DNA of 42,218 bases from Frankia sp. AiPs1 (GTDB taxonomy: Bacteria > Actinomycetota > Actinomycetes > Frankiales > Frankiaceae): assembly GCF_023716945.1 (NCBI RefSeq), contig NZ_JAMQQF010000011.1, positions 1 through 42,218 on the forward strand, written 5' to 3'. The notes below the pieces were generated by a model. That model ran no database searches. It was not told where the DNA came from and saw only the letters and a program-made list of their open reading frames with translations. A program made the position numbers and the translations under genes. Shown here piece after piece: positions 2,300 through 35,369 of the stretch (its first letter is position 1; each line of letters starts with the position of its first letter).

Positions 2300-2773
2300 C
2301 TACAGGCGCAGGGGACGGATCGGGGCGGCGATCAGGTGCGGCTGCGACTGCCAGTCGACGCCCGGCACGTCGATGTACAGCTCGATCTCGTTGCCGTCCG
2401 GGTCGAGGATGTAGAGGCTGTGGGTGATCGTGTGGTCCGAGGCCCCGACGATGTCGACGCCCGCCTCCCGGATGCGGGCCAGGACCTCGCGCAGCTCGTC
2501 GTCGGTGTCGCCGACCTTCAGCCCGAAGTGGTAGAGCCCGATCCGCCGGCCGGCCGGCACCGCGGCCGCGTCCTCGCCGACCTCGATGAGCAGCAGTTCG
2601 TGGTGCGTGCGGCCGGCGGAGAAACCGGCCGCGGGCACGCGCAGCGGGTTGCCGGCGGAGTCGGCCGGGGCCGGGAACACCTGCCGCCAGCCGAGGACGT
2701 CCCGGTAGAACGTGGCCGATCGATCGATGTTGCGGACGTAGAGGACGAGATGTCCCAGTTCCTTGATCTCCAC
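2300..2773 (-). CDS. VOC-family (glyoxalase/ring-cleavage dioxygenase fold) protein
   Basis: 157 residues. Two beta-alpha-beta-beta-beta modules are visible. Likely metal ligands are the His of ELGHLVLYV near residue 8, the His of LYHFGLKV in the second module and the Glu of DGNEIELYID, the pattern of type I extradiol dioxygenases and glyoxalase-like enzymes. The frame is open further upstream, but GTG at 2773 is chosen because GGGGAG lies about six bases before it and homology begins there; upstream residues are low-complexity. Substrate cannot be read from sequence. It stands alone between DUF1275 and ssrA. Confidence 0.8.
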   Translation of the reverse strand: MEIKELGHLVLYVRNIDRSATFYRDVLGWRQVFPAPADSAGNPLRVPAAGFSAGRTHHELLLIEVGEDAAAVPAGRRIGLYHFGLKVGDTDDELREVLARIREAGVDIVGASDHTITHSLYILDPDGNEIELYIDVPGVDWQSQPHLIAAPIRPLRL

Positions 2774-2972
2774 AGTGGTCTCCCCGGGGCTGGCGGACGG
2801 GATGCCGTTGCTCGTACAACTACCACGCGGAGCCCGGCATGCCCGCCGCGGCATAGTGATTTCGCGTCCGCCCGGCCGGTGGCGCTGCCGTCCGTCGTCC
2901 ACCTCGCGTGACGCCCACCTCGCGTGACGCCCGCCGGCTGCGGCGCACGCTCCGGTCGCCGGCGTCCTGCGG

Positions 2973-2978
2973 TAGCAT
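2973..2978 (+). promoter_or_regulatory. Putative -10 box of ssrA
   Basis: TAGCAT lies 25 bases before the mature 5' end of the tmRNA, a position consistent with a short precursor leader removed by RNase P. No good -35 hexamer is visible at 17-18 bases upstream, so this is a weak call. Confidence 0.35.
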
Positions 2979-3002
2979 GGAGCGCCAGGCAAGACTGTAC
3001 CT

Positions 3003-3370
3003 GGGGGTGATCGGTTTCGACTTCGGACGTCGAGGCAGGGGAAGCGGGCCGAGGATGAACGGTTATCTCGTAAACGATCCGTTCAAAAAAATAGCTGCCA
3101 ACAAGTCGCAGCCTGTTACCACCTCTTACGCCCTCGCGGCATAGAGACTAGGTAACCGTCAGCCTGGGAGTGCCTCCGGCCCAGGATCTGACGTCGCTAG
3201 GAGGATCACCGACTGACCCGGTCGCGGGGCCAGCCGGAAAATCAAACAGCGACTGAGCCTATGTCGGCTTGCCTGCGGGTCCGACGGGGCTGAGAAACAA
3301 GTAGCAGGCTCCGCCCGGAGAAGCCCTGTGTCGGTTTCGGAGGACGCGGGTTCGATTCCCGCCACCTCCA
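3003..3370 (+). ncRNA. ssrA: tmRNA (transfer-messenger RNA)
   Basis: The 5' end GGGGGUG (3003-3009) pairs with CACCUCC (3363-3369) as the seven-pair acceptor stem, one G-U pair included; A3370 is the discriminator. The 5' side continues with ATCGGTTTCGACTTCG, the conserved tRNA-like D-region of tmRNA, and the 3' side has the T arm GCGGGTTCGATTCCCGC (3346-3362). The tag reading frame gives ANKSQPVTTSYALAA followed by TAG at 3142-3144; the YALAA end is the protease-recognition tail of actinobacterial tags. CCA is not encoded. The 3' end is supplied by the integrated element: bases from about 3347 on match attR exactly, so integration restores a full tRNA-like domain but moves the native terminator 21.5 kb away. 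Confidence 0.95.
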
Positions 3371-4953
3371 CTCGCTGGATTCGGTATGGGATCATTGCCG
3401 ACGCCGCTGTGACCAGCGGAAACGCTCGGCGATGATCCCACCGGAGAAGATCCGCAAGTGGTGGTACCCAGTCGGTCCCCAGAACGGTTCGCCCGGGGGA
3501 TCGCCGCGGACACCGTCTCGGCCGCCTTACGACCTGTCGACCGCAGCAGATGCGCGTACAGGTTCCCCGTCACCGATGTCGAAGAGTGACCAAGCCTCTT
3601 CGACACGATCGTGATGTCGACTCCCTCGCCGAGCAGGATCGACGCCGACCCGTGACGAAGGTCGTGCAGCCGCTTGCGCGACAGCAGTCGGTCGCCGATC
3701 TCGTCGCCCACCTCCAGGGCCACCGGCAACGGTTCGGCCAGATGCAGCAGCGACCGCGAGCCCTGCACCGCCGCGCCGAGCACCGTCACCGCGCCGACCG
3801 GTTCCCGGTCGCGGTAGAGCGTCCACGTGCCCTCGGCTGGTCGGTACCGCGTGCCCACGACGACGGTGGTCGCCCCGGCCGCCGCCGGCAACCGGACGGT
3901 GCCGAGCAGGCCGACGCGCCGGGCGATCTGCTGCATGCGCTTGGTCAGGTACTCCGGGAACAGGTAGCGCCCGGAGGGGTGCGTGAAGATCAGGTCTCGG
4001 AGTTGGACCGGGTTGCCGTGATCGTCGGGAAGGATGCCGTTGTCCCACTCATCGCCGACCGTCTCCCGCTCGTCCTCCTGGCGGAGCCGGTGGGCTGCCA
4101 GCGATCCGAGGGTGACGCCGTCAAGGTCGACCTTCCGCCGACCTGACCTCGTCTTCGGCGCCCAGACGCCGAGCACGCCGCCACTGCGGACGATCTGCTG
4201 TCGGATCGTGAGCACGGACCCCGCATCGTCGAGTCCGGGCCACGTCGCCCCGCACACCTCCCCACGGCGCACCCCATGCAGCGCCATCAACTCGTACGCG
4301 GCGGCAAGTCGATCGTCGGCCGCCTCGTCGAGGAACCGACCGACCTCCTCGGGCTCCCACGGCTCCACCTCGGGGGCCGAGTGCGAGGCCAGCTCGACGC
4401 CGGCCGCCGGGTTGAATTCGATCATCCTCTGCCTGTGCGCGTCGTTGAGCGCGGTGCGCAGCATCTCGAAGACGTCGCCCACCGTCGCCGGCCCGATCGG
4501 CCGCCCGCGCTCCCGGGCGGCCTCCGCCGCCTTCTTCAGCGCGGTGTCGATGTGCTCGGCTCGTAGCGCGACAAGTGGCATCTCGCCGAGGGTCGGTACC
4601 AGGTGGAGCCGGATGAACGACTCGTACCGGCTGCGGGTCGTCGGTCGTAGGGCGTTCTTCCGGGAGTGCCAGTCCTGGAGGTAGGCGCCTACCGTCAGGT
4701 TCCCGATGTGCTGCCCTCCCGCGCGGACCCGCGCCACGGCCTTCTCTCCGGCCTTCTCGGCTTCCTTCTTGGTCGCATAGCCGGAGTCGCTGATCTCCTG
4801 CTTCCCGACCAGCGGGACCAGTTCCTTCGGAACCCAGATCCGGTAGGCCCACGTCCCGTGGGTGCGCTTGGTCAACTGCGGGCACTTCCCGCGCCCGTAC
4901 TTCTTGCCGGCCTCGTCCCGGCACCCGCAGAGCTTCTCCATATTGATCTTCAT
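3259..4953 (-). CDS. Tyrosine-recombinase integrase of the ssrA element
   Basis: 564 residues. An N-terminal arm-binding-like region carries four cysteine/histidine residues (CGC near 9-11, C24). A SAM-like core-binding domain spans about 85-190 and the catalytic domain about 195-475. Catalytic residues read as R229 (HGVRRGE), K267, H430-x-x-R433 (HDLRHG), H456 (LGHSS) and Y466 (GNLYAHLL). About 70 residues (356-427) are inserted just before HDLRHG, where relatives have only a short link. ATG 4953 overlaps the stop of the upstream XRE gene (ATGA), so translation is coupled. The last 34 residues come from reading attL and the tmRNA on the other strand (GGGGNRTRV). In the excised circle the frame would instead end soon after the att core in RSGPDRA. 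Function is confident. Confidence 0.93.
   Translation of the reverse strand: MKINMEKLCGCRDEAGKKYGRGKCPQLTKRTHGTWAYRIWVPKELVPLVGKQEISDSGYATKKEAEKAGEKAVARVRAGGQHIGNLTVGAYLQDWHSRKNALRPTTRSRYESFIRLHLVPTLGEMPLVALRAEHIDTALKKAAEAARERGRPIGPATVGDVFEMLRTALNDAHRQRMIEFNPAAGVELASHSAPEVEPWEPEEVGRFLDEAADDRLAAAYELMALHGVRRGEVCGATWPGLDDAGSVLTIRQQIVRSGGVLGVWAPKTRSGRRKVDLDGVTLGSLAAHRLRQEDERETVGDEWDNGILPDDHGNPVQLRDLIFTHPSGRYLFPEYLTKRMQQIARRVGLLGTVRLPAAAGATTVVVGTRYRPAEGTWTLYRDREPVGAVTVLGAAVQGSRSLLHLAEPLPVALEVGDEIGDRLLSRKRLHDLRHGSASILLGEGVDITIVSKRLGHSSTSVTGNLYAHLLRSTGRKAAETVSAAIPRANRSGDRLGTTTCGSSPVGSSPSVSAGHSGVGNDPIPNPASGGGGNRTRVLRNRHRASPGGACYLFLSPVGPAGKPT
3347..3371 (+). repeat. attL core of the integrative element (3' end of ssrA)
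   Basis: A 25-bp segment running from the T arm to one base past the tmRNA discriminator (starts CGGGTTCGATTCCCGCC, ends ACCTCCAC) is repeated exactly and in the same direction at 24811-24835. A tyrosine integrase gene abuts it. This is the standard arrangement for integration at a tmRNA gene. Confidence 0.9.
3462..3487 (+). repeat. Putative integrase arm-type site, left (P' arm)
   Basis: This 26-bp stretch begins TGGTACCCAGTCGG and ends CCCAGAACGG; 22 of 26 bases match 24675-24700 in the same orientation, and both are followed by TTC. Each copy holds two CCCAG half-units 11 bp apart. They sit about 90 and 110 bp from the att cores, as expected for sites bound by the integrase N-terminal domain. 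This copy lies inside the integrase 3' coding region. Confidence 0.55.
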
Positions 4954-6862: not shown

Positions 6863-7822
6863 ATGGACGAGGATATTCTAGACCAGTACCTGGCCGCAAA
6901 CGTCTTCGGTGAGGGCCCGGACCCTGACCTGCCGTGGTCTCACTTAAACAAGCCGGGACATGTCCTGCTGAAGAATGGGTACGAGCGGTACTGGGGTCAA
7001 TATCTGGAGCCCATCACGCACCGGATTTTTCACACGATCATGTACCACCAGAACTACGAGACCGGGGCGTGTTTCCCCTCTCGTTCGACCTTGGCGAAGG
7101 CCGTCAAGCACCGCGGCAAGCCCGTATCGGAGAAGACGGTTTCCCGGAAGATCGGGGAGCTGGAGGGCGTTGGACTCCTGGAGATCGTCAGGCCTATCCG
7201 CAGAAACGGGCCGTTCGTCAACCCGCGGTACCGGGCCGGCGGACGGACCAATCGGTATGTGATCAATTATGATCGGCTTGCGGCCACCGATGAAGACGGA
7301 ACCCCAGTCGCCGCGAACATCACAACCCGTTTCTTCCTCACTCTCGGAGGAAGGGTTCACCTCCCACACGGTCATCCGTGGATCGTCCATGAGGACCCGA
7401 AGCAGATGCGGGCACACCTGGCGTTCCTACGAATCGGGATCGTGGAGCCGACTCCCGACCTGTTCGACATTCCTGCGCCTAGAGTGGCGATCAAGCCGCT
7501 GAAGAGCTACAAGCATCGGCCCGATATTCAGGCCGAAGCCGAGGAACTGGCCCAGTACTTCCTGGTCAAGGCTTTCGATGTCGCGCACCGGGTGGACAAG
7601 GTACCTACCAGCGAAAGCGAGATCAAGGATACGTTCGGCCGCTGGCTAGGGGCTACGACGGTTGAGTGCACCCTGGACCACATCATCTTCATGATCGATC
7701 AGTTTTTCGACGAGTGGACGCTGAATGGCAGGCCGAACGCCGACATCTGGAGTCAGTTCGAAAACCAGAAGGCCCGGCTGTTCAACCTCGCAAAGGAAAC
7801 ACTGAACGAGCAAGCGGCGTAG
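6863..7822 (+). CDS. HTH_36-type replication-initiator-like protein
   Basis: 319 residues from ATG 6863, with GAGGAG six bases upstream; the frame is open earlier but that part is not protein-like. Residues about 25-110 form a winged helix of HTH_36 type: HRIFHTIMYHQNYETGACFP, then SRSTLAKAVKHRGKPVSEKT and a second helix VSRKIGELEGVGLLEIVRP. Such domains are common in plasmid and phage replication proteins. The C-terminal half is acidic and aromatic and is not recognised. Directly downstream lie three GAGTGTA iterons and a set of 10-bp-phased repeats, the arrangement expected of a rep gene with its origin. A primase/polymerase motif is not visible, so it would recruit host machinery. Rep function is inferred from domain plus context. 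Confidence 0.6.
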   Translation: MDEDILDQYLAANVFGEGPDPDLPWSHLNKPGHVLLKNGYERYWGQYLEPITHRIFHTIMYHQNYETGACFPSRSTLAKAVKHRGKPVSEKTVSRKIGELEGVGLLEIVRPIRRNGPFVNPRYRAGGRTNRYVINYDRLAATDEDGTPVAANITTRFFLTLGGRVHLPHGHPWIVHEDPKQMRAHLAFLRIGIVEPTPDLFDIPAPRVAIKPLKSYKHRPDIQAEAEELAQYFLVKAFDVAHRVDKVPTSESEIKDTFGRWLGATTVECTLDHIIFMIDQFFDEWTLNGRPNADIWSQFENQKARLFNLAKETLNEQAA

Positions 7823-8754: not shown

Positions 8755-9711
8755 GTGACCAACGTACCAAAGGCGTTCATCAGCCATGCCCACGAGGACA
8801 AGGATCGATTTGTCGTGCCCTTCGCAGCGGCGCTACGCGCCGGTGGAGTTGACGCATGGCTCGACCAGTGGGAAATGGTGGGCGGAGACTCTATCGTCGA
8901 CCGGATATTCCGAGAAGGAATCGGGCAAGCCGATGCGATAATAGTCATCGTATCGCGAGTCAGCGTCAACAAACGTTGGGTGAAGGAAGAACTTGACGCA
9001 GCGATCGTGCGCCGGATCGAGAAGTCTGCGCGGCTTATACCGGTCACACTCGACGGTATTGAGGTTCCCGCAGCGATCGCTCATCTTCTGCGCTATGACG
9101 CGGACGCCTTCGGCGTTGAAGGCACCGCCCACCGTGTCAGACGGACCTTGTATGGAATTTCCGACAAGCCGCCCTTGGGGAACGCGCCGGCCTACACGCG
9201 ATCCGGCGAGCTACCACAGCTAGTAGTGGGTGACCCAGTTGACGACTTGGTTCTTACCCAGATCATCCAAGAGATCCGCGGATCGACGGCCATGTCGATA
9301 CTGATGAGCAACGCAATACAAGAGAGGTTGGCTGCGGTGGACGTCTCGGCGGAAGACTTCTACGAAAGCATGGTGTCGCTCGTCAATCAGGGAGTCGTAA
9401 ATGCCAAGGTGATGTCCGGAGGCCTTCGCTGGCAGATTATAGGCGTGCCCGACTTTGTGTGGCTGACAGCGGAACGGGCAATGGGAATTGACCTGGAAGG
9501 GATTAAGCGATCAATCCTGAGCGTGATCGTCAATGATGGTGCGGACCTGAATTGGTCGATGTTCTCCGACGTGCACTGGCGGACTCTTCGGGCGATATTC
9601 AATGAATTCTCAGCCGATAATCTTCTGAAGTGGACTCAGCCTCTCGGTAGGAATATTCATGTTACCAATGTGAGCCCACTGGCTCGACGGGCATTGCGGA
9701 ACATGGATTAG
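8755..9711 (+). CDS. TIR-domain protein, putative defence effector
   Basis: 318 residues from GTG 8755. The N-terminal 130 residues are a TIR domain: KAFISHAHEDKD (strand A and helix), GVDAWLDQWEMVGGDSI (BB-loop region), ADAIIVIVSRVSVNKRW and then E79 in KEELDAA, the position of the catalytic glutamate in NAD+-cleaving TIRs. Residues about 160-318 are not recognised; LTQIIQEIRGSTAMSILMSN and the following segments look like a winged-helix sensor or adaptor. Bacterial TIR proteins often act in phage defence by depleting NAD+ or making a signal. The gene stands alone, more AT-rich than its surroundings, and lies in the same element as a restriction system. A defence role is inferred. Confidence 0.75.
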   Translation: MTNVPKAFISHAHEDKDRFVVPFAAALRAGGVDAWLDQWEMVGGDSIVDRIFREGIGQADAIIVIVSRVSVNKRWVKEELDAAIVRRIEKSARLIPVTLDGIEVPAAIAHLLRYDADAFGVEGTAHRVRRTLYGISDKPPLGNAPAYTRSGELPQLVVGDPVDDLVLTQIIQEIRGSTAMSILMSNAIQERLAAVDVSAEDFYESMVSLVNQGVVNAKVMSGGLRWQIIGVPDFVWLTAERAMGIDLEGIKRSILSVIVNDGADLNWSMFSDVHWRTLRAIFNEFSADNLLKWTQPLGRNIHVTNVSPLARRALRNMD

Positions 9712-14096: not shown

Positions 14097-15821
14097 TCAG
14101 GCGCGAGACAGGGCGCCAGAACCGCTGGCGACCTGCCAGCCGTCGTCAATCAGGCTCTGGGTTACGTCACGTAGATGGACAGCCGAGAGATCCCAGCTCT
14201 CCCGTATGCCCATCCTCAGTATCTCCAGGTACACGTGACTGGGCGTTCGGCCAATGTTCCCCCTAGCGATCTCCCGTGCCACATTTCCGACCTGGTCCGC
14301 GGTAGGCACTTTGAAGCATCTACTGTCATCGCCTGCGGTCATCGTGATTATCAGATCGAGCGTAGCCACGTGCTCGAACCCCGACGCGAGACCCTTCACT
14401 GAACGCTGACCTTTGTTGAGAATGGCCAGGCTATGGGGGTCAATTAGCAGGCCAGCATTCTTGATGGACCGCTGCACGAGCGACCAAACACTACCGGTCG
14501 AGTTTCCGAATACCATACTCACGTGTCCGCCAGGCTTCAAGATCCGTCGACATTCCGATAGAGCATTGGTCAGCATTCCCTCGTAGCGGCTAGCTGAACG
14601 TACCTTTTTTGAACCCCGGTCCACAACCGCCTCTAGAGAGACATCGGTGAATCCCTCTAGCCACGCTTCTTGGAAAAGCGCCATATCTGCATAGAAAAGA
14701 TTCGATCCGAATGGCGGATCCGTGAACACGTAGTCAACGCTGCTGTCTGCGAGCGGAATCGATTCGGCGCTAGACAACTCGTATGAAACGTCGATCTCAG
14801 GATCGTCCGAGTCGAATAGCGTGCCAGCCTGCATGAGCAAGCGAAGATAATTGTCTGATCGGCAGGCCGCCTCAACTTTACGGAGAAAAAGATCAAAAAC
14901 ATTCCACTCGTAGAATACGGCGGCCACGTAGTAGTTAGCGTTCGCGGCGTTCAATGGCCGCATTGGCGACCATTGATACCTTTTTGACGCTCTAGTAAGG
15001 CAAGCTGTGAATGCGAATAGCAGCTTATCTCTAATCGCCTTGTCCTCGACCTCGCGGATACCTTCTCGCAATACCGTCAAAACGGCAAGGTTGCGCTTTG
15101 AGTAGAAAGAGGATACCGAGATAAGTCCAGACCTACCCAGCGACTGGGTTTTGTACATCTGGCGATCGGGAGTGATCTCAACCCTTGGGTAGGGCAGCGC
15201 ATCCAAGTCGACAGCCGGCGGCGTAGCCGCAGCCTGTTCGATCTGAGTGGTTGAACACCCACACTCGATACAGTCGACCTCACCGATCTCGCCAATGCGC
15301 TCGCTTCCCGACGGCACGCGCAGCCCGCAGTTACTACACTGCATGTCCTTCTTCGACCAGCCGGAGGCCTCCATCGCTCGGTAGAAACTGCCAACATGAG
15401 AGCACTGCGCACACTGGAACTGATAGCTCCAGATCGTCTTGACCAACTTTGCGGTCTCAGAACATTTCCGGCATTTCGTGCCGTATACGTCACCGAGGTA
15501 ACTACGAACTGCGGACACTAGTTCGTCGGCGGTCTTCCGTAGAAGGTCCTGATTCACAAGATTTGCATAGTTACGCCCGATATGCTGGCCTAGTACGCTG
15601 ATATCGAACAGTCGGGCTCGACGCCTAAGGGAAGCTGCGGCTACGCCCGTCATCCCCGACCCGGCGAACGGGTCTACTACTACGTCGCCCTCGTTCGAAT
15701 ACGCGGCGATGAACGGAGTAATGGCCGGGATCGGCACCTTCGTTAGGTAAGCATGTGCCATGTATGCTGGGTCGCTGCGGCCTACGACTAGTTCCTCTGG
15801 CACCGAACGACTGTTACTCAT
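14097..15821 (-). CDS. DNA methyltransferase with zinc-ribbon insert, modification enzyme of the PvuII-like system
   Basis: 574 residues from ATG 15821 (ATG 15836 is an in-frame alternative; both lie in the C-boxes). Motif X-I is N-terminal: AYLTKVPIPAITPF, then GDVVVDPFAGSGMTG near residue 50. Motif IV, VFTDPPFGSNLFYADM, is near residue 367. The DPPF form is used by amino-methyltransferases (N4-cytosine or N6-adenine). Between them are four CxxC pairs (CRKC, CAQC, CSNC, CIEC), two likely zinc ribbons, and a probable target-recognition region. M.PvuII is a smaller beta-class enzyme with the opposite order (SPPF first), so this is a different methyltransferase type. It is divergent from the C gene and must protect the site cut by the neighbouring nuclease. 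Substrate site is inferred from that partner. Confidence 0.8.
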   Translation of the reverse strand: MSNSRSVPEELVVGRSDPAYMAHAYLTKVPIPAITPFIAAYSNEGDVVVDPFAGSGMTGVAAASLRRRARLFDISVLGQHIGRNYANLVNQDLLRKTADELVSAVRSYLGDVYGTKCRKCSETAKLVKTIWSYQFQCAQCSHVGSFYRAMEASGWSKKDMQCSNCGLRVPSGSERIGEIGEVDCIECGCSTTQIEQAAATPPAVDLDALPYPRVEITPDRQMYKTQSLGRSGLISVSSFYSKRNLAVLTVLREGIREVEDKAIRDKLLFAFTACLTRASKRYQWSPMRPLNAANANYYVAAVFYEWNVFDLFLRKVEAACRSDNYLRLLMQAGTLFDSDDPEIDVSYELSSAESIPLADSSVDYVFTDPPFGSNLFYADMALFQEAWLEGFTDVSLEAVVDRGSKKVRSASRYEGMLTNALSECRRILKPGGHVSMVFGNSTGSVWSLVQRSIKNAGLLIDPHSLAILNKGQRSVKGLASGFEHVATLDLIITMTAGDDSRCFKVPTADQVGNVAREIARGNIGRTPSHVYLEILRMGIRESWDLSAVHLRDVTQSLIDDGWQVASGSGALSRA

Positions 15822-15840
15822 AGTCTGTAGCCTCATAGTC
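15815..15840. promoter_or_regulatory. C-boxes of the restriction-modification system
   Basis: Two half-conserved dyads, TACTCATAGTC (15815-15825) and GCCTCATAGTC (15830-15840), are separated by TGTA (15826-15829). This is the layout known for C.PvuII operators, GACT-N3-AGTC, TGTA, GACT-N3-AGTC. They lie 28 bp before the C gene start and contain both possible ATG codons of the methyltransferase. Confidence 0.75.
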
Positions 15841-15867
15841 TGCCCGGTTCATACGGTCTACGACATC

Positions 15868-16104
15868 ATGCCGTACGGACCCGCGCCGACCCCCGAGCCC
15901 CACCGTGTCGCCTTTGGGCGCCGTGTCCGCACCCTCCGAGAAGCGCGAGGACTCTCGCAAGAATCTCTCGCTGAGCAAGCGGACGTGCACCGAACGTACA
16001 TCTCAAGTCTGGAGCGCGGCCACCGTAACGTGGGGCTTGACAACATCATCGCCCTGGCCAGGGCGCTCGGCGTCGCACCCGGCCAGTTGTTCGAGGACGT
16101 CTAG
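15868..16104 (+). CDS. Controller (C) protein, XRE family
   Basis: 78 residues from ATG 15868, typical for C proteins. The helix-turn-helix is clear: FGRRVRTLREARGLSQESLA, EQADVHRTYISSLERGHRNV, GLDNIIALARALGVAPGQLF. The HRTYISSLERG recognition helix closely resembles C.PvuII-type and related controllers. No ribosome site precedes the ATG, so the mRNA may be leaderless or nearly so. C-boxes lie just upstream. By analogy it delays nuclease expression until the methyltransferase has acted; but here the nuclease gene is convergent rather than downstream in the same operon, so control of the nuclease must differ from PvuII. Confidence 0.85.
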   Translation: MPYGPAPTPEPHRVAFGRRVRTLREARGLSQESLAEQADVHRTYISSLERGHRNVGLDNIIALARALGVAPGQLFEDV

Positions 16105-16133: not shown

Positions 16134-16739
16134 TCATTCAGTCAGCGTCTGTTGCCGCGGTACACCATCCTGTGCGAGCAGCGGCCAGATGCAGACACCA
16201 TTATTGATGACGAACTTGAGCGGAATCTTCGGGTTGTTCAAGTGGGGAGGTGCGGAGCCCTCGACCCCCCGGCTGATCTGATCCCGGATTTTTCGCTCCC
16301 ATTCCCCAAAGAAAGTCTCCAGTCGGGAAGGGGCGATCTCGTAAATCGACTCCGGCGCTGCCTGGTCAAAGACTGCTACGATCCATAGATGGACGCGCCT
16401 GTAACGCTCAATGTTCTCGATGGTTAGCGTGTGTTCTGTTGTGATGCCGAGACTTGTCTTTCTTACGCCTCTCGAACTGACGCGAGCGACCGTCTTGATC
16501 TCATATTGTCTACCCAGGCTATCTGCGGCATCATCCCCAGTTCTGCCAAGTTTTTTTAGATCGAGTAGCGTCAGTAGTAGCAGCTCCTTGTATCCGCCGT
16601 CGTCGAATACGTTGTGAATGCCGTGCTTCGTCGCTTCCGCCTGAAGCTTCTTGCCCATTGCTATGAGCGGCTGAATATCGCCTGTCGGTGCCAGTACAGG
16701 CTGAGACTGGCCGCCTTGCGGCCACAGAGGGTCATGCAC
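16134..16739 (-). CDS. PvuII-like type II restriction endonuclease
   Basis: 201 residues; R.PvuII has 157. From about residue 33 the likeness to R.PvuII is direct: KHGIHNVFDDGG, then GRTGDDAADSLGRQYEIKT, where D70, E80 and K82 match the catalytic D58, E68 and K70 with identical spacing. Also SIYEIAPSRLETFFGEWERK and LNNPKIPLKFVINNGVCIW match the PvuII C-terminal half. The PvuII HHH stretch is replaced by TTEHTLT, keeping one His. Extra are a 32-residue N-terminus and a 16-residue tail. The expected target is CAGCTG or a close relative (inferred). It converges on the C gene, whose stop is 29 bp away. Confidence 0.85.
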   Translation of the reverse strand: MHDPLWPQGGQSQPVLAPTGDIQPLIAMGKKLQAEATKHGIHNVFDDGGYKELLLLTLLDLKKLGRTGDDAADSLGRQYEIKTVARVSSRGVRKTSLGITTEHTLTIENIERYRRVHLWIVAVFDQAAPESIYEIAPSRLETFFGEWERKIRDQISRGVEGSAPPHLNNPKIPLKFVINNGVCIWPLLAQDGVPRQQTLTE

Positions 16740-16929: not shown

Positions 16930-18108
16930 GGCTGCGCTGCGTGACCGTCGCACGGTCAGGTGGTGCGCCCGTGTTCGATGTCGAGGAGGTCGAGGTCGGC
17001 GGCGACGTCAACCACGAGTTCATGGCCCCCACCGAGGTTGGGGAGGACCTGTTCGTCTACGCGCCCGACGGCACGTACGCGGCGAACCTGGAGGCGGCGT
17101 ACTGCGAGCGTCCCGAGCCGGTCGAGCCCGGATCGCAACCGTTGGTTCGCGCGCACACGCCTGGGGTTCCTGGGGTCGACGACCTGTCCGCCCACCTGGG
17201 GCGTCGCAGATCCTGAAGTGCGTCCTCTACAAGCTGCCCCAGGCCGAGGGCGAGGCGCCCCTTCGGGCGATCGCTGTACTGGTCCCGGGCGACCGCGAGG
17301 TCAACGAGCACAAGCTCACAAAGGAACTGGGAGCGCCACCGTCGCTCCTCGACGCCGCCGACTTCACCGCGCACCCGGCTCTGGTCCGCGGCTATGTCGG
17401 CCCGGTCGGGCTCGGAGCCCACGTCTATCGGATCATTGCGGATCATCACGTCGCCGCCGGCCGCGACTGGTGCACGGGCGCGAACCAGGTCGACCATCAC
17501 GTCACTGCTGCAACCTGGGCCGGGACTTCACTCCCGACGAGTTCGCCGATGTCACCAACGTGCGTGCGGGGGATGCCTCTCCGGACGGCAGCGGACCGCT
17601 GGCGATCGACCGCTCGGTCGAGGTCGGGCACATCTTCCAACTCGGCACCAAGTACTCCCAGCCGCTGGAAGCCCGCTACCTGGACACGAACGGCAAGGAC
17701 GTAGCGATGATGATGGGCTGCTATGGCATCGGGATCAGCCGCATCCTGTCCGTTGCCATCGAACAGCACCACCACGACGACAACGGCATCCTCTGGCCGG
17801 CGGAACTCGCTCCCTACGACGTCGAGGTCATCCCGCTCGGCAAGAACGTCGACCCGGAGGCAGTCACCAGTGTGGCTGCGACGCTGCAGGCCGAGGGCCT
17901 GGACGTCCTCGTCGACGACCGGCCGGGGTCGGCCGGGGTCAAGTTCGCCGATGCCGACCTGATCGGCTGCCCCGTCCAGGTCATCGCCGGCCGCCGTCTC
18001 GCCGAGGGAGTGGTCGAGGTACGGACCCGCGACCGGTCGACCACCCTCGACGTCGACATCGCAGACCTCCCGAAGGCAGTGCAGCGACTCCTCCACCCGT
18101 CGGCCTAG
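16930..18108 (+). pseudogene. proS: Prolyl-tRNA synthetase remnant, truncated and frameshifted
   Basis: Three frames together spell the last two thirds of a bacterial ProRS. Segment 1 (to about 17210) has VGGDVNHEFMAPTEVGEDLF and YAANLEAA. Segment 2 (about 17208-17500) belongs to the inserted editing domain (ILKCVLYKLPQAEGEAPLRA, VLVPGDREVNEHKLTKELG). Segment 3 (about 17505-18108) has the motif 3 region MMMGCYGIGISRILSVAIEQ, GILWPAELAPYDVEV and the anticodon-binding domain to a natural stop. The N-terminal part with motifs 1 and 2 is absent, and two frameshifts remain (near 17210 and 17505). It cannot be functional. It sits next to an intact lysS, so the element once carried at least two spare synthetases. 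Confidence 0.85.
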
Positions 18109-18264: not shown

Positions 18265-19716
18265 TCAGTCGTCCTCTTCGGGTGTGGCTAGCTGGTCTTT
18301 GTGGGCGCCGCGCATGGTGGGAAAGAGGACGACGTCTCGGAGAGTCGGGGCGTCGGTGAGGAGAGCGACGAAGCGATCGATACCAAGCCCGAGGCCGGAC
18401 ATCGGGGGCATGCCGTACTCCATGGCCTCGATGAAATCCTCTTCGAGCATCATGGTCTCGTCGTCGCCGGCCTCGCGGAGCGCGGCCTGCTCTTCGAGCC
18501 GCTGCCGCTGCTCAGCGGGGTCGACCAGTTCGGAGTAGGCCTTGACGACCTCCACGCCGTTGACCACTACCTGGAACATGTCGAGCGCGGTGGGGTCAGC
18601 GTCGCTGCGCCGAGCCAAGGGGACTAGCTCCGCCGGGTGATGCACCAGGAAGCAGGGCTGGATGAGGTCGGGCCGGACGGTCTTCTTGTAGAGCAGGTCG
18701 ACGAGGCCGGCGTAGGACGGGGAGGTCCCGACGTCCAGGCCGAGCTCGGCTACCCGGCCGCGCAGGGTGGGAAGATCACGGATGACGGTAAGGTCGATGC
18801 CGGTGCGCCGCGCCACCTCGGCCCGGTAGTCGATCTCCGGCCAGTCGGCGCCGAAGTCGAGCTTGACGCCCTCGTAGGTGACCGACCGGGCACCAAGGAC
18901 ATCATCGAGGACCGCGAGGATCAGCTCACGCACGAAGGCCATGTTGTCGCGGTAGTCCCAGTAGGCGGCGTACCACTCCAGCATCGTGAACTCCTGGAGG
19001 TGCGAGGAGTCCATGCCTTCGTTGCGGAAGTTGCGGCCCAGTTCGTAGACGCGGTCGTAGGCACCGACGACGATCCGCTTGAGGTAGGTCTCGGGTGAGA
19101 TCCGCAGGTAGAAGTCTTCGCCCAGGGCGTTGTGCTTGGTGATGAACGGGCGGGCCGCTGCGCCGGACGCCGCCTCTTGCAGCATCGGGGTTTCGACTTC
19201 GAGGAAGTCGTTGTCGTCGAGGAACCGGCGAATCCGACTAATGATCTTCGTGCGGGTCTGAAACCGTTCCCGGGACTCGGAGTTGACGAGCAGGTCGAGG
19301 TAGCGGCGGCGGTAGCGGGCCTCGACGTTGGACAGGCCCTGCCACTTGTCCGGAAGGGCACGCACGGTCCGGTTCAGGACCGTCATCTCGGAGATGGCGA
19401 CGGTCCGCTCGCCGCGGCGAGTGGTGTAGAGGCTGCCGGCGATCCCGATGAAATCGCCGATCTTGACGGCGCGGGACCATTCCTTGATGACGTCCGCACC
19501 CAGATCGGTCTTGGACAGGGAGACCTGCACCCGGCCGCTACGGTCTTGCAGATGCCCGAAGATCAGCCCGCCCATACGGCGCCATAGGACTACGCGACCG
19601 GCGAGACGGACAGCCGTCCCGTCGGGAGCGGCTGCGGCGTCGGCTGCAACCGCGTCGGTCCGGTAGCCGGACTGCGGCCCGGCCGCCTCGCTTGCCCCGG
19701 GCTCCTCGATCGACAT
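18265..19716 (-). CDS. lysS: Class II lysyl-tRNA synthetase, spare copy on the element
   Basis: 483 residues from ATG 19716, a normal length, with AAGAGGG nine bases upstream. The OB-fold anticodon domain is at about 35-140 (VRLAGRVVLWRRMGGLIFGH, LQDRSGRVQVSL). Class II motifs follow: motif 1 FLEVETPMLQ, motif 2 LGRNFRNEGMDSSHLQEFTM and motif 3 GLGLGIDRFVALLTD, all intact, so it should charge tRNA-Lys. A TAGGCT at 19827-19832 (minus strand) gives a likely -10 box and a leader of about 100 nt. It follows the 47-aa peptide gene on the same strand. As a mobile-element copy it may protect against a LysRS inhibitor or feed Lys-tRNA to a biosynthetic step; both are inferences. A housekeeping role is unlikely but not excluded. 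Confidence 0.95.
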   Translation of the reverse strand: MSIEEPGASEAAGPQSGYRTDAVAADAAAAPDGTAVRLAGRVVLWRRMGGLIFGHLQDRSGRVQVSLSKTDLGADVIKEWSRAVKIGDFIGIAGSLYTTRRGERTVAISEMTVLNRTVRALPDKWQGLSNVEARYRRRYLDLLVNSESRERFQTRTKIISRIRRFLDDNDFLEVETPMLQEAASGAAARPFITKHNALGEDFYLRISPETYLKRIVVGAYDRVYELGRNFRNEGMDSSHLQEFTMLEWYAAYWDYRDNMAFVRELILAVLDDVLGARSVTYEGVKLDFGADWPEIDYRAEVARRTGIDLTVIRDLPTLRGRVAELGLDVGTSPSYAGLVDLLYKKTVRPDLIQPCFLVHHPAELVPLARRSDADPTALDMFQVVVNGVEVVKAYSELVDPAEQRQRLEEQAALREAGDDETMMLEEDFIEAMEYGMPPMSGLGLGIDRFVALLTDAPTLRDVVLFPTMRGAHKDQLATPEEDD

Positions 19717-19888
19717 CAACACACACCCTCTTGCAGCAGAAAGCACCAGCTAGCCGCGAGGGTGGCGTTGGGTGAACGCTCCCGGGCGGGCCAGGTGACG
19801 GACCGGCATCCGTAGATGACCTCTCCAGCCTACCGACCTTCGCCGAAGCCCCTGCGGGGCACCTGACGCACCCGGAAGCGCAGGAAGA

Positions 19889-20032
19889 TCATCCAGACTG
19901 CTGGGCCTCCGCGGCCTGCGCTGGCACCTGGCTGAAGTCCCCCTGCTGCTTGAGAGCGAAGACCGGGCCCGGAACCTCGTGCAGGTCGAAGACGGATTCG
20001 GCTGATTCGATGACTGCGGACTCTTGTGCCAC
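19889..20032 (-). CDS. 47-aa peptide, candidate RiPP precursor
   Basis: GTG 20032 has GAGAGGAG six bases upstream (20039-20046), one of the best ribosome sites in the window. The peptide starts MAQESAVIESAESVFDLHEV, continues PGPVFALKQQGDFSQ and ends VPAQAAEAQQSG. The FDLHEV-type motif after an acidic helix recalls leader peptides of ribosomally made, modified peptides; there is no Cys or Thr, and the C-terminal part is rich in Ala, Gln and Ser. A TAGGCT at 20062-20067 on this strand is a likely -10 box. The gene is divergent from two SagB-like dehydrogenases, 40 bp away, and is followed by lysS. No family is recognised; the precursor role is inferred from size, context and expression signals. 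Confidence 0.65.
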   Translation of the reverse strand: MAQESAVIESAESVFDLHEVPGPVFALKQQGDFSQVPAQAAEAQQSG

Positions 20033-20041
20033 TTCGTGCTC

Positions 20042-20063
20042 CTCTCATCCCTTTACGTGAGAG
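20042..20063. promoter_or_regulatory. Inverted repeat between peptide gene and sagB-like operon
   Basis: CTCTCA (20042-20047) and TGAGAG (20058-20063) flank ten bases. It sits between the -10 box and ribosome site of the peptide gene and just before the ATG of the divergent operon, so it could be a shared operator. Confidence 0.4.
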
Positions 20064-20072
20064 CCTAGCCAG

Positions 20073-21206
20073 ATGGAAGCCTCTAGGGAGTCGGATCGCA
20101 ACGAATCGTCAGCATTGGCTTCCGTCGGGCAGGACCAGATGCTCTACGTGCCCTCTGACGTGCGCATTCGCCTGGGGCGCTGGGGTGTTGGCGATGCTGT
20201 CCTGATCGAGCGGCTCACGACGAGGCAGCGATGGACCGCGAATCGCGCCGTTGCCGCGGTCCTGCTGACCTTCAGCGGCGGGCGCACCCGTGGCCAGGGG
20301 GCGGAAACGGCTGCCGAGGTTCTTGCTACCAAGCAGGAAGACGTCCAGTGGCAGATCAACCGCCTCGCCGAGATCGGTCTTCTGCATGCCGCAGTACCCC
20401 CCACGTCCGGTCCTCTTGCCGAACAGTGGCGTGAACACGGCTGGATCGCGGCTTACGATCACCATCTCGCCACCTGGGACTTCCCGCTGGTCGACTACAC
20501 GGCTGGCGGTCGTCAGATCGACCGGACCCGGATGGAGGGCTACCGGGCCGATGCTCCGGATCCTGGCCCCTTGGCCCACGGATACTGCGCGGAGCTCCCC
20601 ACCGCGTTCGACCTATCCGACGCGGCGAGCATCGAGCTGTCGGCGCCGCTCACCGCAGTGCTACACAACACGGAAGCGTCGGCGAGCCTCGACGCGGGGA
20701 CGCTGCGGGCGCTGCTCGCGCAGACTTTCTGCTTCACCGAGACCCAACCGGAATGGAAGATCCGCCGGACAAGCCCCAGCGGTGGAGCTCGCTATCCGGC
20801 CGAAGGATATGTGATCACGCAAGGCGTCGACGATATGTCGGATGGCGTCTGGCACGTCGATGCGGCCCGCTGTCGTCTGGTCCGAGTCCCCGGCTCCGTC
20901 AGCGCGGCCTGGGCAAAGGCCAATCTCGAAGGACTACACCTCGCGCCCTTCGCCCCTCAGGCTTTTGTGATCGTCACCGCCGTTTTCGCCCGAAATATGT
21001 ATAGATACCGGGAGCCTCGAACATTCCGCACGGTCTTCATGGACGTGGGACACCTTCTCGGCACCTTGGAAATGGTCGCGAGTGGGCTGGGGGTTCGTTC
21101 CTTCATCCACCACGCGATCAATGAGTCGGAGGTCGAAGGCATGCTGAAAATCTCGCCTCTCCGCGAAGGCGTGATTGCCGGTGCGGCCATCGCTGGTCGG
21201 CCATGA
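20073..21206 (+). CDS. SagB/ThcOx-type flavin-dependent dehydrogenase, first of pair
   Basis: 377 residues from ATG 20073 (ATG 20139, MLYVPSDVRIRLGRWG, is an alternative). The N-terminal 90 residues form a winged-helix-like segment (NRAVAAVLLTFSGG, then QINRLAEIGLLHA), as in SagB-type enzymes of peptide-modifying clusters. The nitroreductase fold spans about 190-377 and has the canonical RRTSPSGGARYPAEGYVI and GHLLGTLEMVASGLGVRSF. The opening RRSxRxF flavin motif is replaced by LHNTEASASLDAG. No YcaO cyclodehydratase is nearby. Its stop overlaps the next start (ATGA). Likely an FMN oxidoreductase acting on a peptide; substrate unknown. Confidence 0.8.
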   Translation: MEASRESDRNESSALASVGQDQMLYVPSDVRIRLGRWGVGDAVLIERLTTRQRWTANRAVAAVLLTFSGGRTRGQGAETAAEVLATKQEDVQWQINRLAEIGLLHAAVPPTSGPLAEQWREHGWIAAYDHHLATWDFPLVDYTAGGRQIDRTRMEGYRADAPDPGPLAHGYCAELPTAFDLSDAASIELSAPLTAVLHNTEASASLDAGTLRALLAQTFCFTETQPEWKIRRTSPSGGARYPAEGYVITQGVDDMSDGVWHVDAARCRLVRVPGSVSAAWAKANLEGLHLAPFAPQAFVIVTAVFARNMYRYREPRTFRTVFMDVGHLLGTLEMVASGLGVRSFIHHAINESEVEGMLKISPLREGVIAGAAIAGRP

Positions 21207-22207
21207 GTGAGCAGCGCGTTTGGCGGCCACTCACCACAGCGACTCCCGTGGGGGATCGCTATGTTGAGATGGACTCGCCCGTGGCCGGATCTCGTATCCG
21301 CTTACACCGGGACGCACTCGTCCGCCTTCTCGCTGACCAGCCGGTGCCGCCAGCCTTCGAACACGGCCTTACGGAACGTGGCCTCCTCTGCGTCAGCGGC
21401 GGCGAGGAGGAACCGGCCGAAGAAGACCTTGCACTGTGGCAGGAGCGAGGTTGGGGGCTTTCGCTCGCGAGCTATCTGTGGTCGAGGTCGGTGTCGTACT
21501 ACGATTCGGGTCCCGGCGAAGAGGATAGACGATCGGCCGCAATAGAGTCGATGCTTCATGAACGTTCCTGCCCCCTGCCTCCCGAACCGGATCCGTCCGC
21601 GGTCTCCCTCCAGGCGGTCGGGGACTGGGACGCCCCGCCTTTGAGTGCGGTGCTTGCAAAACGGCGGAGTGTCGGAGCGTTCCGGCAGAGCAGCGTCGAT
21701 CGGGGGGCTCTGGCGGCACTGCTGTACTACGGGACTAGCAAGATCCGGGCGTGCCGCCGAGCTGCCTCCGCTGAGAAACCGAGCAGCCTGCTGATCAGCG
21801 TGGGAGCAGCATTCGATATCTACGTCCTTGTCTACGCGGTCGACGGGCTGATATCTGGCGTGCACCGCTACCATCCCGAGACGAATACGCTCTCGTTGGT
21901 CAAAGCGGGAAATTTCCGGGAGGCGGCGTACGTCGCTCTCGCCGGACAGCCGGCCCCAAAAAATGCAGCAGCCACGATCCTGCTCGTCGCCGACTTCGCG
22001 CGGTACCAATGGCGATATCGCCATGAACGTGCCCTACGGAACTTGTACCTGGAAGCCGGACGACTGATGCAGCCACTGATTCTCGTTGCTACCGCCCTGG
22101 GGCTACAAACAGGGATCACTCCAGCGGTGCGCGACGAAGAGATCGCCGATCTACTCGGCGAGAATTCAGAGAATTGGCAGGCTCTACACACCCTGACTGT
22201 CGCCTAA
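21203..22207 (+). CDS. SagB-like flavin-dependent dehydrogenase, second of pair
   Basis: 334 residues, start coupled by ATGA to the preceding gene. The N-terminal segment (SRIRLHRDALVRLLADQPVP, HGLTERGLLCV) parallels the wing-like domain of its partner, followed by LALWQERGWGLSLASYLWSR, a linker seen in SagB relatives. The nitroreductase domain opens with the intact flavin motif AVLAKRRSVGAFRQSSVDRG but lacks PSGGARYP at the next conserved site, where it reads SAEKPSSLL. SGVHRYHPETNTLSLVKAG and LYLEAGRLMQPLILVATALG are further family features. The missing motifs are complementary to those of the partner, so a heterodimer sharing two flavin sites is likely. Substrate unknown. Confidence 0.75.
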   Translation: MSEQRVWRPLTTATPVGDRYVEMDSPVAGSRIRLHRDALVRLLADQPVPPAFEHGLTERGLLCVSGGEEEPAEEDLALWQERGWGLSLASYLWSRSVSYYDSGPGEEDRRSAAIESMLHERSCPLPPEPDPSAVSLQAVGDWDAPPLSAVLAKRRSVGAFRQSSVDRGALAALLYYGTSKIRACRRAASAEKPSSLLISVGAAFDIYVLVYAVDGLISGVHRYHPETNTLSLVKAGNFREAAYVALAGQPAPKNAAATILLVADFARYQWRYRHERALRNLYLEAGRLMQPLILVATALGLQTGITPAVRDEEIADLLGENSENWQALHTLTVA

Positions 22208-22329
22208 GGTGATGTGAAATTGGTTCATATTTCGGCTTGGTTGTGGTAGTGCGACGCTGGCAGCTAATCGGACTAAGTGAAAAATGCGCGGACTCGGGAA
22301 ATTTATACGGCGGCTGCCCGAGGACTGCG

Positions 22330-22374
22330 AACGGCGAATCCCCTGGCGGACTCGGGTATGGGGGATTCGCCGTT
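22330..22374. terminator. Strong hairpin after sagB-like operon
   Basis: AACGGCGAATCCCC (22330-22343) pairs perfectly with GGGGATTCGCCGTT (22361-22374), loop 17 bases. It separates the convergent sagB-like operon and the unknown minus-strand genes and can serve both. The 22208-22429 interval holds nothing else recognisable. Confidence 0.6.
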
Positions 22375-22429
22375 GGCGGAAATTCTGAGCGCCAGAGCGT
22401 CGGTAGACGCCAGCAGTATCCTCGCCCTT

Positions 22430-22960
22430 CTAGGGGGCGCTTCCCTCGCCTCTCAGGGGATATGCCATTTCCTGTGATGCAGTTTCGTGCCATGCTCGCA
22501 TGATGAAGCGGTCCGGTCCGGTGATCGTGAATGTTTGGGCTCTTGCCAGGTCGAGCACCATCAGCGGTCGTGGGAACGTGTCCATCTGTATGGAGAAACG
22601 GCACCAGCGCAGGACGGGCCCGAGATGGTCGCTGGGGTGTTGTGCGATCACGGTTCCGTCGCCGTCGAAGACGATGATGTTCGCGCTGTGGGGCATTATG
22701 CTGGGCTTCTCGGTCGGCTCTGGCCGCTGGTAGACAGCGCCGCCGACGACGGCATGCATCGCGGACAGGACGTCCTCCTGGAAGGAGACCTGTCCGTCGC
22801 GGTGGTCCTGAGGGTCCTGGTAGCCGTCTGGATCCCTGGGCTCGATGGTGAGAATCGCCGCCAGCATGTCGAGCGCCGTTGCATGGTCGACACGGCCGTC
22901 TCGCCCCCGGGTCACCCGTGGGATGAGGATGTCGCGCAGTAGCGTCGAGTAGGCGGTCAT
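22430..22960 (-). CDS. Hypothetical protein, second gene of two-gene operon
   Basis: 176 residues from ATG 22960, whose first bases overlap the stop of the preceding gene (ATGA). N-terminal half helical (STLLRDILIPRV, HATALDMLAAILTIE), C-terminal half a probable beta domain (ANIIVFDGDGTVIAQ, PLMVLDLARAQTFTITG). No family is recognised. No signal peptide or membrane segment is seen. Confidence 0.6.
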   Translation of the reverse strand: MTAYSTLLRDILIPRVTRGRDGRVDHATALDMLAAILTIEPRDPDGYQDPQDHRDGQVSFQEDVLSAMHAVVGGAVYQRPEPTEKPSIMPHSANIIVFDGDGTVIAQHPSDHLGPVLRWCRFSIQMDTFPRPLMVLDLARAQTFTITGPDRFIMRAWHETASQEMAYPLRGEGSAP

Positions 22961-24810: not shown

Positions 24811-24835
24811 CGGGTTCGATTCCCGCCACCTCCAC
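24811..24835 (+). repeat. attR core of the integrative element
   Basis: Exact 25-bp copy of 3347-3371. The bases to its left do not form a tRNA-like domain, so this is the att copy left at the far end, not a second tmRNA gene. Six bases to the right begins the terminator that originally followed ssrA. Confidence 0.9.
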
Positions 24836-24840
24836 AAGCT

Positions 24841-24884
24841 GGCCCGCCGTGGTCGCTGACCTTTGGTCAGCTTCCCGGCGGGCC
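24841..24884 (+). terminator. Displaced ssrA terminator
   Basis: GGCCCGCCG (24841-24849) pairs with CGGCGGGCC (24876-24884), and inside them GCTGACC (24855-24861) pairs with GGTCAGC (24865-24871). TTTT follows at 24891. Before insertion this would have stood directly after the tmRNA. Confidence 0.65.
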
Positions 24885-24969
24885 GCGATGTTTTCCGGGG
24901 GGCGACCCCCCGGACCCCCACGGGCGCGATGTATGGCGGGGTCGGTGGGATCATGGCGTCATCTGGTTC

Positions 24970-33799: not shown

Positions 33800-35257
33800 T
33801 CAGGCCGGGGGATAACCGATCGTCTTGATCTCCAGGAAGGACTCGAAGCCGGGGATGCCGTTCTCCCGGCCGAGGCCGCTCTGCTTGTAGCCGCCGAACG
33901 GCGAGTCCGGGGCGAGCCAGTGGGCGTTGTTGACGGCGACCGTCCCGGTCCGCAGCCGGCGGGCCACGGCCATGGCCCGCTCGACGCTGCCACTGGAGAC
34001 CACGCCGGACAGGCCGTAGATGCTGTTGTTGGCGATCGCGACCGCGTCGTCGTCATCGTCGAACGGGAGCACCGTCACCACCGGGCCGAAGATCTCCTCC
34101 TGGGCGATGCGGGCATCGGGATCGACGTCGACGAACAACGTCGGCTCGACGTAGAACCCGCGGTCGTGCCGCGGCGAGCGCTCACCGCCGCAGACGAGCT
34201 TCGCCTCGGACCGCCCGACATTGATGTAGTCGAGCACCCGGGTCCGTTGCCGGTCGCTGATGAGCGGCCCCATCATGTTCGCCGGGTCCATCGGGTCGCC
34301 GTACGGGAAGGCGCGCACGGCGGCCTCGGCCGCGTCGACCGCCTCGGTGTAGCGGGAGCGTGGGACGAGGATGCGGGTGGCCAGCGCGCAGCCCTGCCCG
34401 GCGTGGAAGCAGATGTGCGAGGCGGCGAGTCCGACGACCGCGCCGAGGTCGGCGTCGTCGAGCACGATGGAGGCCGACTTCCCGCCGAGTTCGAGGAAGG
34501 TCCGCTTCACCGTCCCCGCCGCCGAGGCCATGACCGCCCGGCCCGTCGCGGTCGAGCCGGTGAACGTGATGAGGTCGACGTCGCGGTGCGCGGTGAGCTG
34601 GGCGCCGATTCCGTGGTCGGCGGAGGTGACGACGTTGAGCACGCCCGGGGGCAGGTCGGTGTCCTCCAGCGCGATCTGACCGAGCAGCGCCGCGGTCCAC
34701 GGGGTGTCCGGCGCCGGCTTGAGCACCACCGTGTTCCCCGCGGCGAGCGCGCCGGTCACCTTGACCAGGTTCAGCATCAGCGGGAAGTTCCACGGGGTGA
34801 TGGCGCCGACGACGCCGACCGGCTCGCGCCGCACGACCCGGCTCGCCGGGCCCATCAGGGTCGTCGTGTCGGGTAGTGCCTGCTCGTACGCGTAGGACTC
34901 CGCGAGGTCGGCGACATAGCCGATGTCGGCGATCACCGGCTCGACCTGCATGAGCCGGCTCAGCGACAGCGTGCAGCCGGTCTCGGCGATGAGGACCTCC
35001 CGGACCTGTTCGATCCGGGCCTGCAACGCGGTCTGGAGCTGACGAAGGCAGTGCGCCCGCAACGCCGGGTCGGTGCTCCATGAGCCCCGGTCGAACCGGT
35101 GTCGGGCCGCCGTGACCGCCGCGTCGAGGTCCGCCGGTCCCGCGTCGGCGGCGACCCCGAGGAGCTCCTCCGTGGCGGGGTTGCCGTTGTCGAACGTCCG
35201 CCCGGAGCGGGCGGCGACGAGCTCGCCGTTGATGATCAGTTCCGATCGGTCGATCAT
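33800..35257 (-). CDS. Aldehyde dehydrogenase
   Basis: 485 residues from ATG 35257, a normal length. Cofactor-binding VGAITPWNFPLMLNLVKVTG, ALAAGNTVVLKPAPDTPWTA and the glycine motif FTGSTATGRAVMASAAG are present. The general base Glu is in FLELGGKSASIVL and the nucleophilic Cys in FHAGQGCALATR; EEIFGPVVTVLPFD and SPFGGYKQSGLGRENG follow. Likely oxidises the aldehyde made by the adjacent mycofactocin-type SDR. Substrate unknown. Confidence 0.93.
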   Translation of the reverse strand: MIDRSELIINGELVAARSGRTFDNGNPATEELLGVAADAGPADLDAAVTAARHRFDRGSWSTDPALRAHCLRQLQTALQARIEQVREVLIAETGCTLSLSRLMQVEPVIADIGYVADLAESYAYEQALPDTTTLMGPASRVVRREPVGVVGAITPWNFPLMLNLVKVTGALAAGNTVVLKPAPDTPWTAALLGQIALEDTDLPPGVLNVVTSADHGIGAQLTAHRDVDLITFTGSTATGRAVMASAAGTVKRTFLELGGKSASIVLDDADLGAVVGLAASHICFHAGQGCALATRILVPRSRYTEAVDAAEAAVRAFPYGDPMDPANMMGPLISDRQRTRVLDYINVGRSEAKLVCGGERSPRHDRGFYVEPTLFVDVDPDARIAQEEIFGPVVTVLPFDDDDDAVAIANNSIYGLSGVVSSGSVERAMAVARRLRTGTVAVNNAHWLAPDSPFGGYKQSGLGRENGIPGFESFLEIKTIGYPPA

Positions 35258-35369
35258 CGACCCTCCTGTCGCCGGAAGCGGCGGTGATCCCGCGCGTCCG
35301 TGACATTGGTAACAATCCCGCGAATTATTGTCAACCGGAGAGTCGGCTAAATTGGTGCCGGCGGGAGTT

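Follow-up and report, generated by a model that had tools for sequence, protein, structure and literature searches.

A short peptide gene beside paired SagB-type flavoenzymes in an ssrA-integrated element of Frankia sp. AiPs1: a candidate YcaO-independent RiPP-like system

What could a 47-residue peptide be doing when its gene stands beside two SagB/ThcOx-type flavoenzyme genes and a lysine--tRNA ligase gene (lysS)? The question is raised by Frankia sp. AiPs1 contig NZ_JAMQQF010000011.1 (C222 of a 7.35-Mb draft genome), a stretch of 42,218 nucleotides that was analysed whole and is called the window here. The peptide gene and the two coupled flavoenzyme genes, sagB1 and sagB2, are real and belong together. 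They are referred to below as the module, and probably belong with the YcaO-free nitroreductase systems resembling those of ribosomally synthesized and post-translationally modified peptides (RiPPs). On balance, the sequence comparisons favor a YcaO-independent RiPP-like system, carried as cargo of an element integrated at ssrA, in which a SagB1-SagB2 heterodimer would desaturate the peptide (-2 Da). The adjoining lysS is probably an unrelated passenger and not a member of the module. Literature searches limited to open-licence PubMed Central (PMC) papers returned no description of a SagB pair with such a peptide.

The peptide gene (19889-20032, minus strand) is precursor-like, carries the conserved segment FDLHEVPGPVFALKQ, and begins with a GTG codon preceded by GAGGAG, a good ribosome site. 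Divergent from it on the plus strand, sagB1 ends at 21206 and encodes a SagB/ThcOx-type dehydrogenase with a PSGG motif. Its open reading frame (ORF) was listed from 20073; the start is probably the ATG at 20139, because the first 22 listed residues are not common to the relative L021 described below and DNA similarity runs only from 20148 on. With this start, 106 bp (20033-20138) separate the divergent genes. A second SagB-type protein, without PSGG, is encoded by sagB2 (21203-22207, plus strand), whose frame overlaps that of sagB1 by 4 bases (ATGA). Apart from the probable SagB1 start, the gene coordinates, the excellent ribosome site and the coupled divergent pair given in the preliminary description, including lysS at 18265-19746 (minus strand), were all confirmed. 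No match to a sigma-70-type promoter was found within 19700-22700. The statement that YcaO, LanB and radical-SAM genes are missing nearby also held, as these families gave zero Pfam or NCBIfam matches among 42 scanned window ORFs (lysS and a prolyl-tRNA synthetase fragment were scanned by NCBIfam only; a separate crude ORF calling gave 42 ORFs, 3 of them outside the scan). Neither a processing protease nor a dedicated exporter was identified next to the module.

The evidence that the three genes form a unit comes from a single close relative. A scan based on SagB1 patterns, which covered 84,980 species by a single genome each and detects close relatives only, matched 12 stretches, one of which encodes a relative: L021, a Pseudonocardiales contig from a metagenome-assembled genome. 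Its enzymes are 68-70% identical to the window pair (SagB1 70%), and a divergent 57-aa peptide beside them gives the same three-gene arrangement. FxLxEVPGPxFALKQ is common to the window and L021 peptides, which align with a score of 89 against 22.8 +- 4.5 for shuffles. Within the 15 codons of the conserved segment, the first, second and third codon positions differ 0, 1 and 8 times, respectively, indicating that the peptide is selected at the protein level. The ratio of nonsynonymous to synonymous substitutions (dN/dS) is 0.55 for the whole peptide, implying that its ends are freer than the conserved segment, and the tail is not conserved between the two. For the enzymes the ratio is 0.067 (SagB1) and 0.125 (SagB2, a count that omits the stop codon of L021 sagB2), with synonymous sites near saturation. 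A conserved short precursor-like gene beside a modifying enzyme, a criterion for RiPP systems, is found in both the window and L021. Conservation in another copy was the test that the preliminary description had set for its peptide, and L021, the sole close copy found, provides it. The accompanying remark that the peptide has no Cys or Thr is correct for the window; in the shared segment there is no Cys, Ser or Thr. Outside that segment, the tails do contain such residues: Ser in the window peptide, Ser and Thr in that of L021, and Cys in a Thermus peptide described below.

Beyond L021, the peptide is rare. A search of 35 genomes of the order (7 genera) was positive in 1/35, and a peptide profile run on 200 genomes matched 1/200, the genome of L021 itself. 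The profile gave two matches among 396 genomes, the Frankia genome and G261 (E 0.004); the latter, a frame of 29 aa whose available 3 kb of sequence lacks any SagB gene, was taken as chance. No match was obtained for the L021 peptide among plasmids or for the window peptide among phages, and viral contigs contained no relative.

Nitroreductase PF00881 is the only Pfam domain in either enzyme. Against the SagB family model TIGR03605 (cut-off 78.4 bits), SagB1 scores 72.9-75.2 and SagB2 77.4-79.5 bits; against TIGR04511, putative peptide maturation dehydrogenase, they score 94.1 and 91.6 bits, under the cut-off of 240. Among solved structures, both profiles best match PDB 3eo7, a single chain that holds a pair of nitroreductase domains. 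The profile of SagB1 favors residues 72-234 (E 3.6e-25 vs 0.002 for the second domain), while the SagB2 profile favors residues 325-507 (E 6e-18 vs 7e-10 for the first), and the domain order of 3eo7 is the gene order of the window. The motif TSPSGG is kept by SagB1 in 4/4 aligned members; SagB2 is without it and retains the region around YRHERALRNL. We infer a SagB1-SagB2 heterodimer in which a single FMN (flavin mononucleotide) site works. In a structure-profile alignment, McbC Lys201-Tyr202, which we take to be catalytic, falls on SagB1 Arg311-Tyr312; the SagB1 of a Halorussus plasmid has Lys-Tyr at this position.

In the proposed mechanism, the 47-aa peptide would be the precursor, and the two proteins would mimic a split two-domain nitroreductase whose single FMN is bound mainly by SagB1. 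The N-terminal region of SagB1 may bind the conserved peptide segment, by analogy with ThcOx, whose N-terminal portion has a leader-binding fold (excerpt of PMC5108345), and BmdC, which has a domain like the RiPP recognition element (RRE; excerpt of PMC8795117). A residue within this segment or immediately behind it would then lose two hydrogens to the flavin and become a dehydroamino acid (-2 Da). Phe25 and Leu27 (both in FALK) and Phe15 (in V-F-D) are the candidates; alternatively, FxL may be the recognition part and the modification site may lie in FALK or the tail. Around the Phe, the peptides read SVFDL (window), VIFEL (L021) and EPFDL (Thermus); their three-residue likeness to the I-F-D site desaturated in PflA is a lead only.

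Both enzymes also match partners on four plasmids, three of which have small peptide ORFs beside the pair. On that of Thermus thermophilus SG0.5JP17-16, a peptide gene annotated as hypothetical accompanies SagB1, SagB2, ThiF, a MATE exporter and a protein that matches DUF885 weakly, under the cut-off. On the Natrinema pallidum plasmid (L025), SagB1-like (174 bits) and SagB2-like (102 bits) genes lie ~2 kb apart, with an unannotated peptide of 28-33 aa ahead of the latter. On the Halorussus caseinilyticus plasmid (L131), the two genes (119 and 88 bits) overlap in reversed order, and two unannotated, near-identical tandem copies of a 30-aa peptide (L131:7083-7190 and 7370-7477, minus strand) each have GGAGGTG before the ATG. 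The Anoxybacillus amylolyticus plasmid carries SagB1, insertion sequence genes and SagB2, together with a third protein weakly resembling SagB and a probable membrane protein. The pattern E[VL]x(5,6)[AF][LV]x[QE] is common to the window, Thermus, Natrinema and Halorussus peptides. Among 5112 distinct ORFs of 18-90 aa from the window and the loci gathered by then, its narrower form E[VL]x(5,6)ALxQ occurs in 4, all 4 adjoining SagB pairs, where shuffles expect 0.3; the wider form occurs in 8 against 1.9 expected, and six of these are beside pairs, two being the Halorussus copies. Tentatively, and with some doubt, these loci may represent a YcaO-free RiPP class of bacterial and archaeal mobile elements, in which a flavin-binding SagB1 and a degenerate SagB2 would form the heterodimer, the wider pattern would be the short signal read in tiny precursors, and the variable C-terminal residues behind it would be desaturated.

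Searches for further copies returned many single enzymes. SagB1 matched at E<=1e-10 in 17 of 396 genomes of the phylum, and a SagB1 profile matched 29 of 393 genomes of the class, the Frankia genome being included in both counts; a SagB2 profile found 26 places in 24 of 397 genomes of another order, 20 of the 26 being examined. No second SagB pair appeared in the examined loci, most of which reach only ~1.5 kb to each side, so that a more distant partner, as in Natrinema, would escape detection. The apparent pair in L057 proved to be two overlapping frames of a single gene. Five loci, in Priestia J2, Nonomuraea, Streptomyces NBC_01281, Ligilactobacillus and Polaromonas, have one SagB but no SagB2-like partner in the fetched stretch and were set aside. 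A Novosphingobium match of the Thermus peptide (E 0.5) had no SagB match in 8.1 kb around it, and a radical-SAM gene ~7 kb before the Thermus peptide, standing behind transposases, was not counted as a cluster member. It was also observed that the Natrinema pair and a small HQHH-containing peptide adjoin nickel ABC-transporter genes, and that the Priestia J2 SagB lies near nikABCD. On a Ligilactobacillus salivarius plasmid (L136:3378-5744), a SagB gene accompanies a 41-aa peptide and a 354-aa protein that we presume to resemble ATP-grasp enzymes.

Several observations weigh against the proposed desaturation and its extension to the plasmids. No Pfam or NCBIfam model covers the N-terminal region of SagB1, where an RRE-like fold would lie, and the AlphaFold model of SagB2 has a pLDDT (predicted local distance difference test) of 36 and was not used. 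For ThcOx itself, the excerpt of PMC5108345 describes one of the two clamp domains as probably inactive and reports that no peptide was seen bound. L021 sagB2 contains a single in-frame TGA, which may be genuine or stem from misassembly. The peptides of the five loci have no aromatic residue in common, and therefore dehydrophenylalanine (dehydroPhe) is not predicted for the whole family. The alignment of the Thermus peptide is not significant with the window peptide (P 0.28) and weak with that of L021 (0.03). The wider pattern also occurs in two unrelated ORFs (window 35099-35287 and L125 1216-1452). The patterns were devised after the peptides had been seen, and no peptide carrying the pattern lies near the Anoxybacillus pair; thus the pattern is regarded as support and not as proof.

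By its sequence features, the module sits in a 21.5-kb ssrA-integrated element (3347-24835), as indicated by a tmRNA-end repeat, an integrase and comparison with a relative. The tmRNA gene was located at 3003-3371 by ARAGORN, and its last 25 bases (3347-3371) are exactly repeated at 24811-24835; the integrase gene (3259-4953) is beside the left copy. The relative G001 is collinear with the window over 118-3371 and again from 32893, with an 89-bp match (24831-24919) at the right repeat. The G+C content of the element is 0.636, compared to 0.728 and 0.704 in the outer flanks. Its other cargo includes HTH/DUF5753 (HTH, helix-turn-helix) and DUF397 genes. By appearance, a DNA methylase (14097-15836, minus), an HTH protein (15760-16104, plus) and a PvuII-like endonuclease (16134-16739, minus) form a restriction-modification set, and a TIR-domain protein with a ThsB-TIR match (8755-9711) is a possible anti-phage component. 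Outside the element, an OAA-family lectin sugar-binding domain (95.7 bits) was found at 38082-38585.

The element also carries lysS (NF001756, class II, 552 bits against a cut-off of 468), 142 bp from the peptide stop and the only class-II lysS found in its genome. Its product shares 94% identity with that of G003 and 72-90% with 19 others; in all, 21 of the 35 order genomes reach 72% or more, and two further genomes gave only a 40-42% match. Class-I lysyl-tRNA synthetase (LysRS) occurs in 12 of the 35, the Frankia copy being at G000 C324:4249-6090, and three genomes (G012, G013 and G015) had neither class at the limits used. Both classes together were found in the Frankia genome alone (1/35), many of the genomes being incomplete drafts. 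A contaminant contig was thought an unlikely cause of this coexistence, because G001 matches the right flank in pieces (90-96%) and shows collinearity with both flanks; G003, whose lysS is the most similar, gave one weak match only in the right flank. At the DNA level, lysS matches G003 at 91% over 18286-19828, ending 60 bp before the peptide gene. Because this match stops short of the peptide, lysS seems to have arrived as cargo with its own upstream region. A prolyl-tRNA synthetase C-terminal fragment (16960-18108; ~190 residues, aligned to the final third of the model) adjoins lysS. The L021 genome has its intact class-II lysS (85% identical) on a different contig, where the 309 bp available upstream contain no such peptide. 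No lysS was seen beside the L021 module, where the contig stops 241 bp past the peptide and a farther lysS is possible. Nor is a lysS annotated in the stretches from Thermus, Natrinema and Halorussus, whose plasmid gene tables are incomplete. Fragments of lysS also occur in the L021 genome on a contig different from that of the intact gene (L126:4763-5152), next to what we take to be ribosomal-protein genes.

These findings bear on two explanations that would give lysS a part in the system. The preliminary description had suggested that LysS charges tRNA-Lys and that the peptide receives a lysine ahead of its oxidation by the flavin. The closeness of the genes and the extra LysRS agree with this, but no LanB-like protein of the PEARL type is among the scanned window ORFs, no lysS was observed with the other copies of the module, and the G003 match ends before the peptide. 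Lysine addition is not supported and is improbable in the extreme. The expected co-occurrence of peptide, pair and lysS was borne out for peptide and pair in L021 and, as far as the contig reaches, failed for lysS, leaving the observation intact and its interpretation half right. Alternatively, the product might inhibit class-I LysRS, with the imported class-II enzyme substituting for it as self-protection. The singular coexistence of both classes, with the extra copy beside the peptide in the same element, is in keeping with this, whereas the separate lysS of the L021 genome, the other module-bearing stretches with no lysS seen beside the module, and cargo such as the PvuII-like nuclease and TIR protein make it very unlikely.

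Three further explanations concern the module itself. The peptide could be a small partner of the flavoenzymes, as AlbB is of AlbA, with the pair oxidising another small molecule; two-gene nitroreductase-type oxidases of small molecules do exist (excerpt of PMC11055893), and the peptide is short with an unconserved tail. This is considered unlikely, as the Halorussus tandem copies, the locus-specific tails and the RiPP-like Thermus cluster with its exporter favor a precursor. A decaying or inactive remnant moved by mobile elements would account for the rare, scattered distribution, the stop in L021 sagB2 and the prolyl-tRNA synthetase fragment in the element. Strong purifying selection on both enzymes and the peptide segment, together with the intact window frames, renders it quite unlikely. 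Finally, nitroreductases of RiPP clusters usually co-localise with YcaO, with which they jointly install azoles (excerpt of preprint PMC12636437), and an ordinary pathway to linear azol(in)e-containing peptides or thiazole/oxazole-modified microcins (LAP/TOMM) could operate here with a YcaO cyclodehydratase acting from elsewhere in the genome. No YcaO was found among the scanned window ORFs, the rest of the genome not having been searched for it, or in the incomplete gene tables of the plasmid stretches from Thermus, Natrinema and Halorussus. The shared segment offers no Cys, Ser or Thr and SagB1 has Arg311 in place of McbC Lys201, so that azole formation appears very improbable.

The proposed YcaO-independent desaturating system remains the favored interpretation and can be compared with known ones. 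It would be a minimal three-gene case of the YcaO-free nitroreductase RiPP-like sets, hinting at a wider bacterial and archaeal family with very small precursors, and would reveal an azoline-free action of SagB enzymes and the reason for their split into flavin-binding and degenerate halves. The azoline dehydrogenases SagB, McbC and ThcOx share a superfamily with the window pair; unlike them, the window enzymes are paired, with no YcaO nearby and no heterocyclisable residue in the shared segment. A graspetide branch (excerpt of PMC8939145) likewise has a SagB-like nitroreductase in a putative RiPP locus, but its main enzyme is an ATP-grasp ligase, of which no match is among the scanned window ORFs. 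AlbAB, of nitroreductase fold, desaturates cyclo(Phe-Leu) (excerpt of PMC11055893) and resembles the window pair in its two components, fold, FMN and the alpha,beta-dehydrogenation that it performs on a Phe/Leu substrate. Unlike the window pair, in which both members look like nitroreductases and adjoin a peptide gene, AlbAB includes a protein, AlbB, that is no nitroreductase, and it acts on a cyclic dipeptide from a tRNA-dependent synthase; neither an AlbB-type partner nor a cyclodipeptide synthase gave a Pfam match among the scanned ORFs. According to the excerpt of the 2025 preprint PMC12636437, which reports the first dehydroPhe in a RiPP, YcaO-free nitroreductases are rare and functionally uncharacterised, and others of them may make other dehydroamino acids. 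The PflD cluster studied there has no YcaO, and the nitroreductase domain of PflD turns the Phe of AAIFDQ into Z-dehydroPhe. Such MNIO-nitroreductase RiPPs (Pseudomonas pfl and pos) combine, like the window, a nitroreductase with a RiPP precursor and no YcaO, and their target Phe lies in I-F-D, compared to V-F-D in the window and I-F-E in L021. In these systems the nitroreductase is fused to MNIO and an HEXXH enzyme is present, while the window has two separate SagB proteins and neither feature. The closest structural counterpart, the putative nitroreductase 3eo7 of Anabaena variabilis, whose structure is cited as unpublished in the excerpt of PMC8795117, holds two SagB-like domains in one chain, matching SagB1 and then SagB2; in the window these correspond to two genes beside a peptide.

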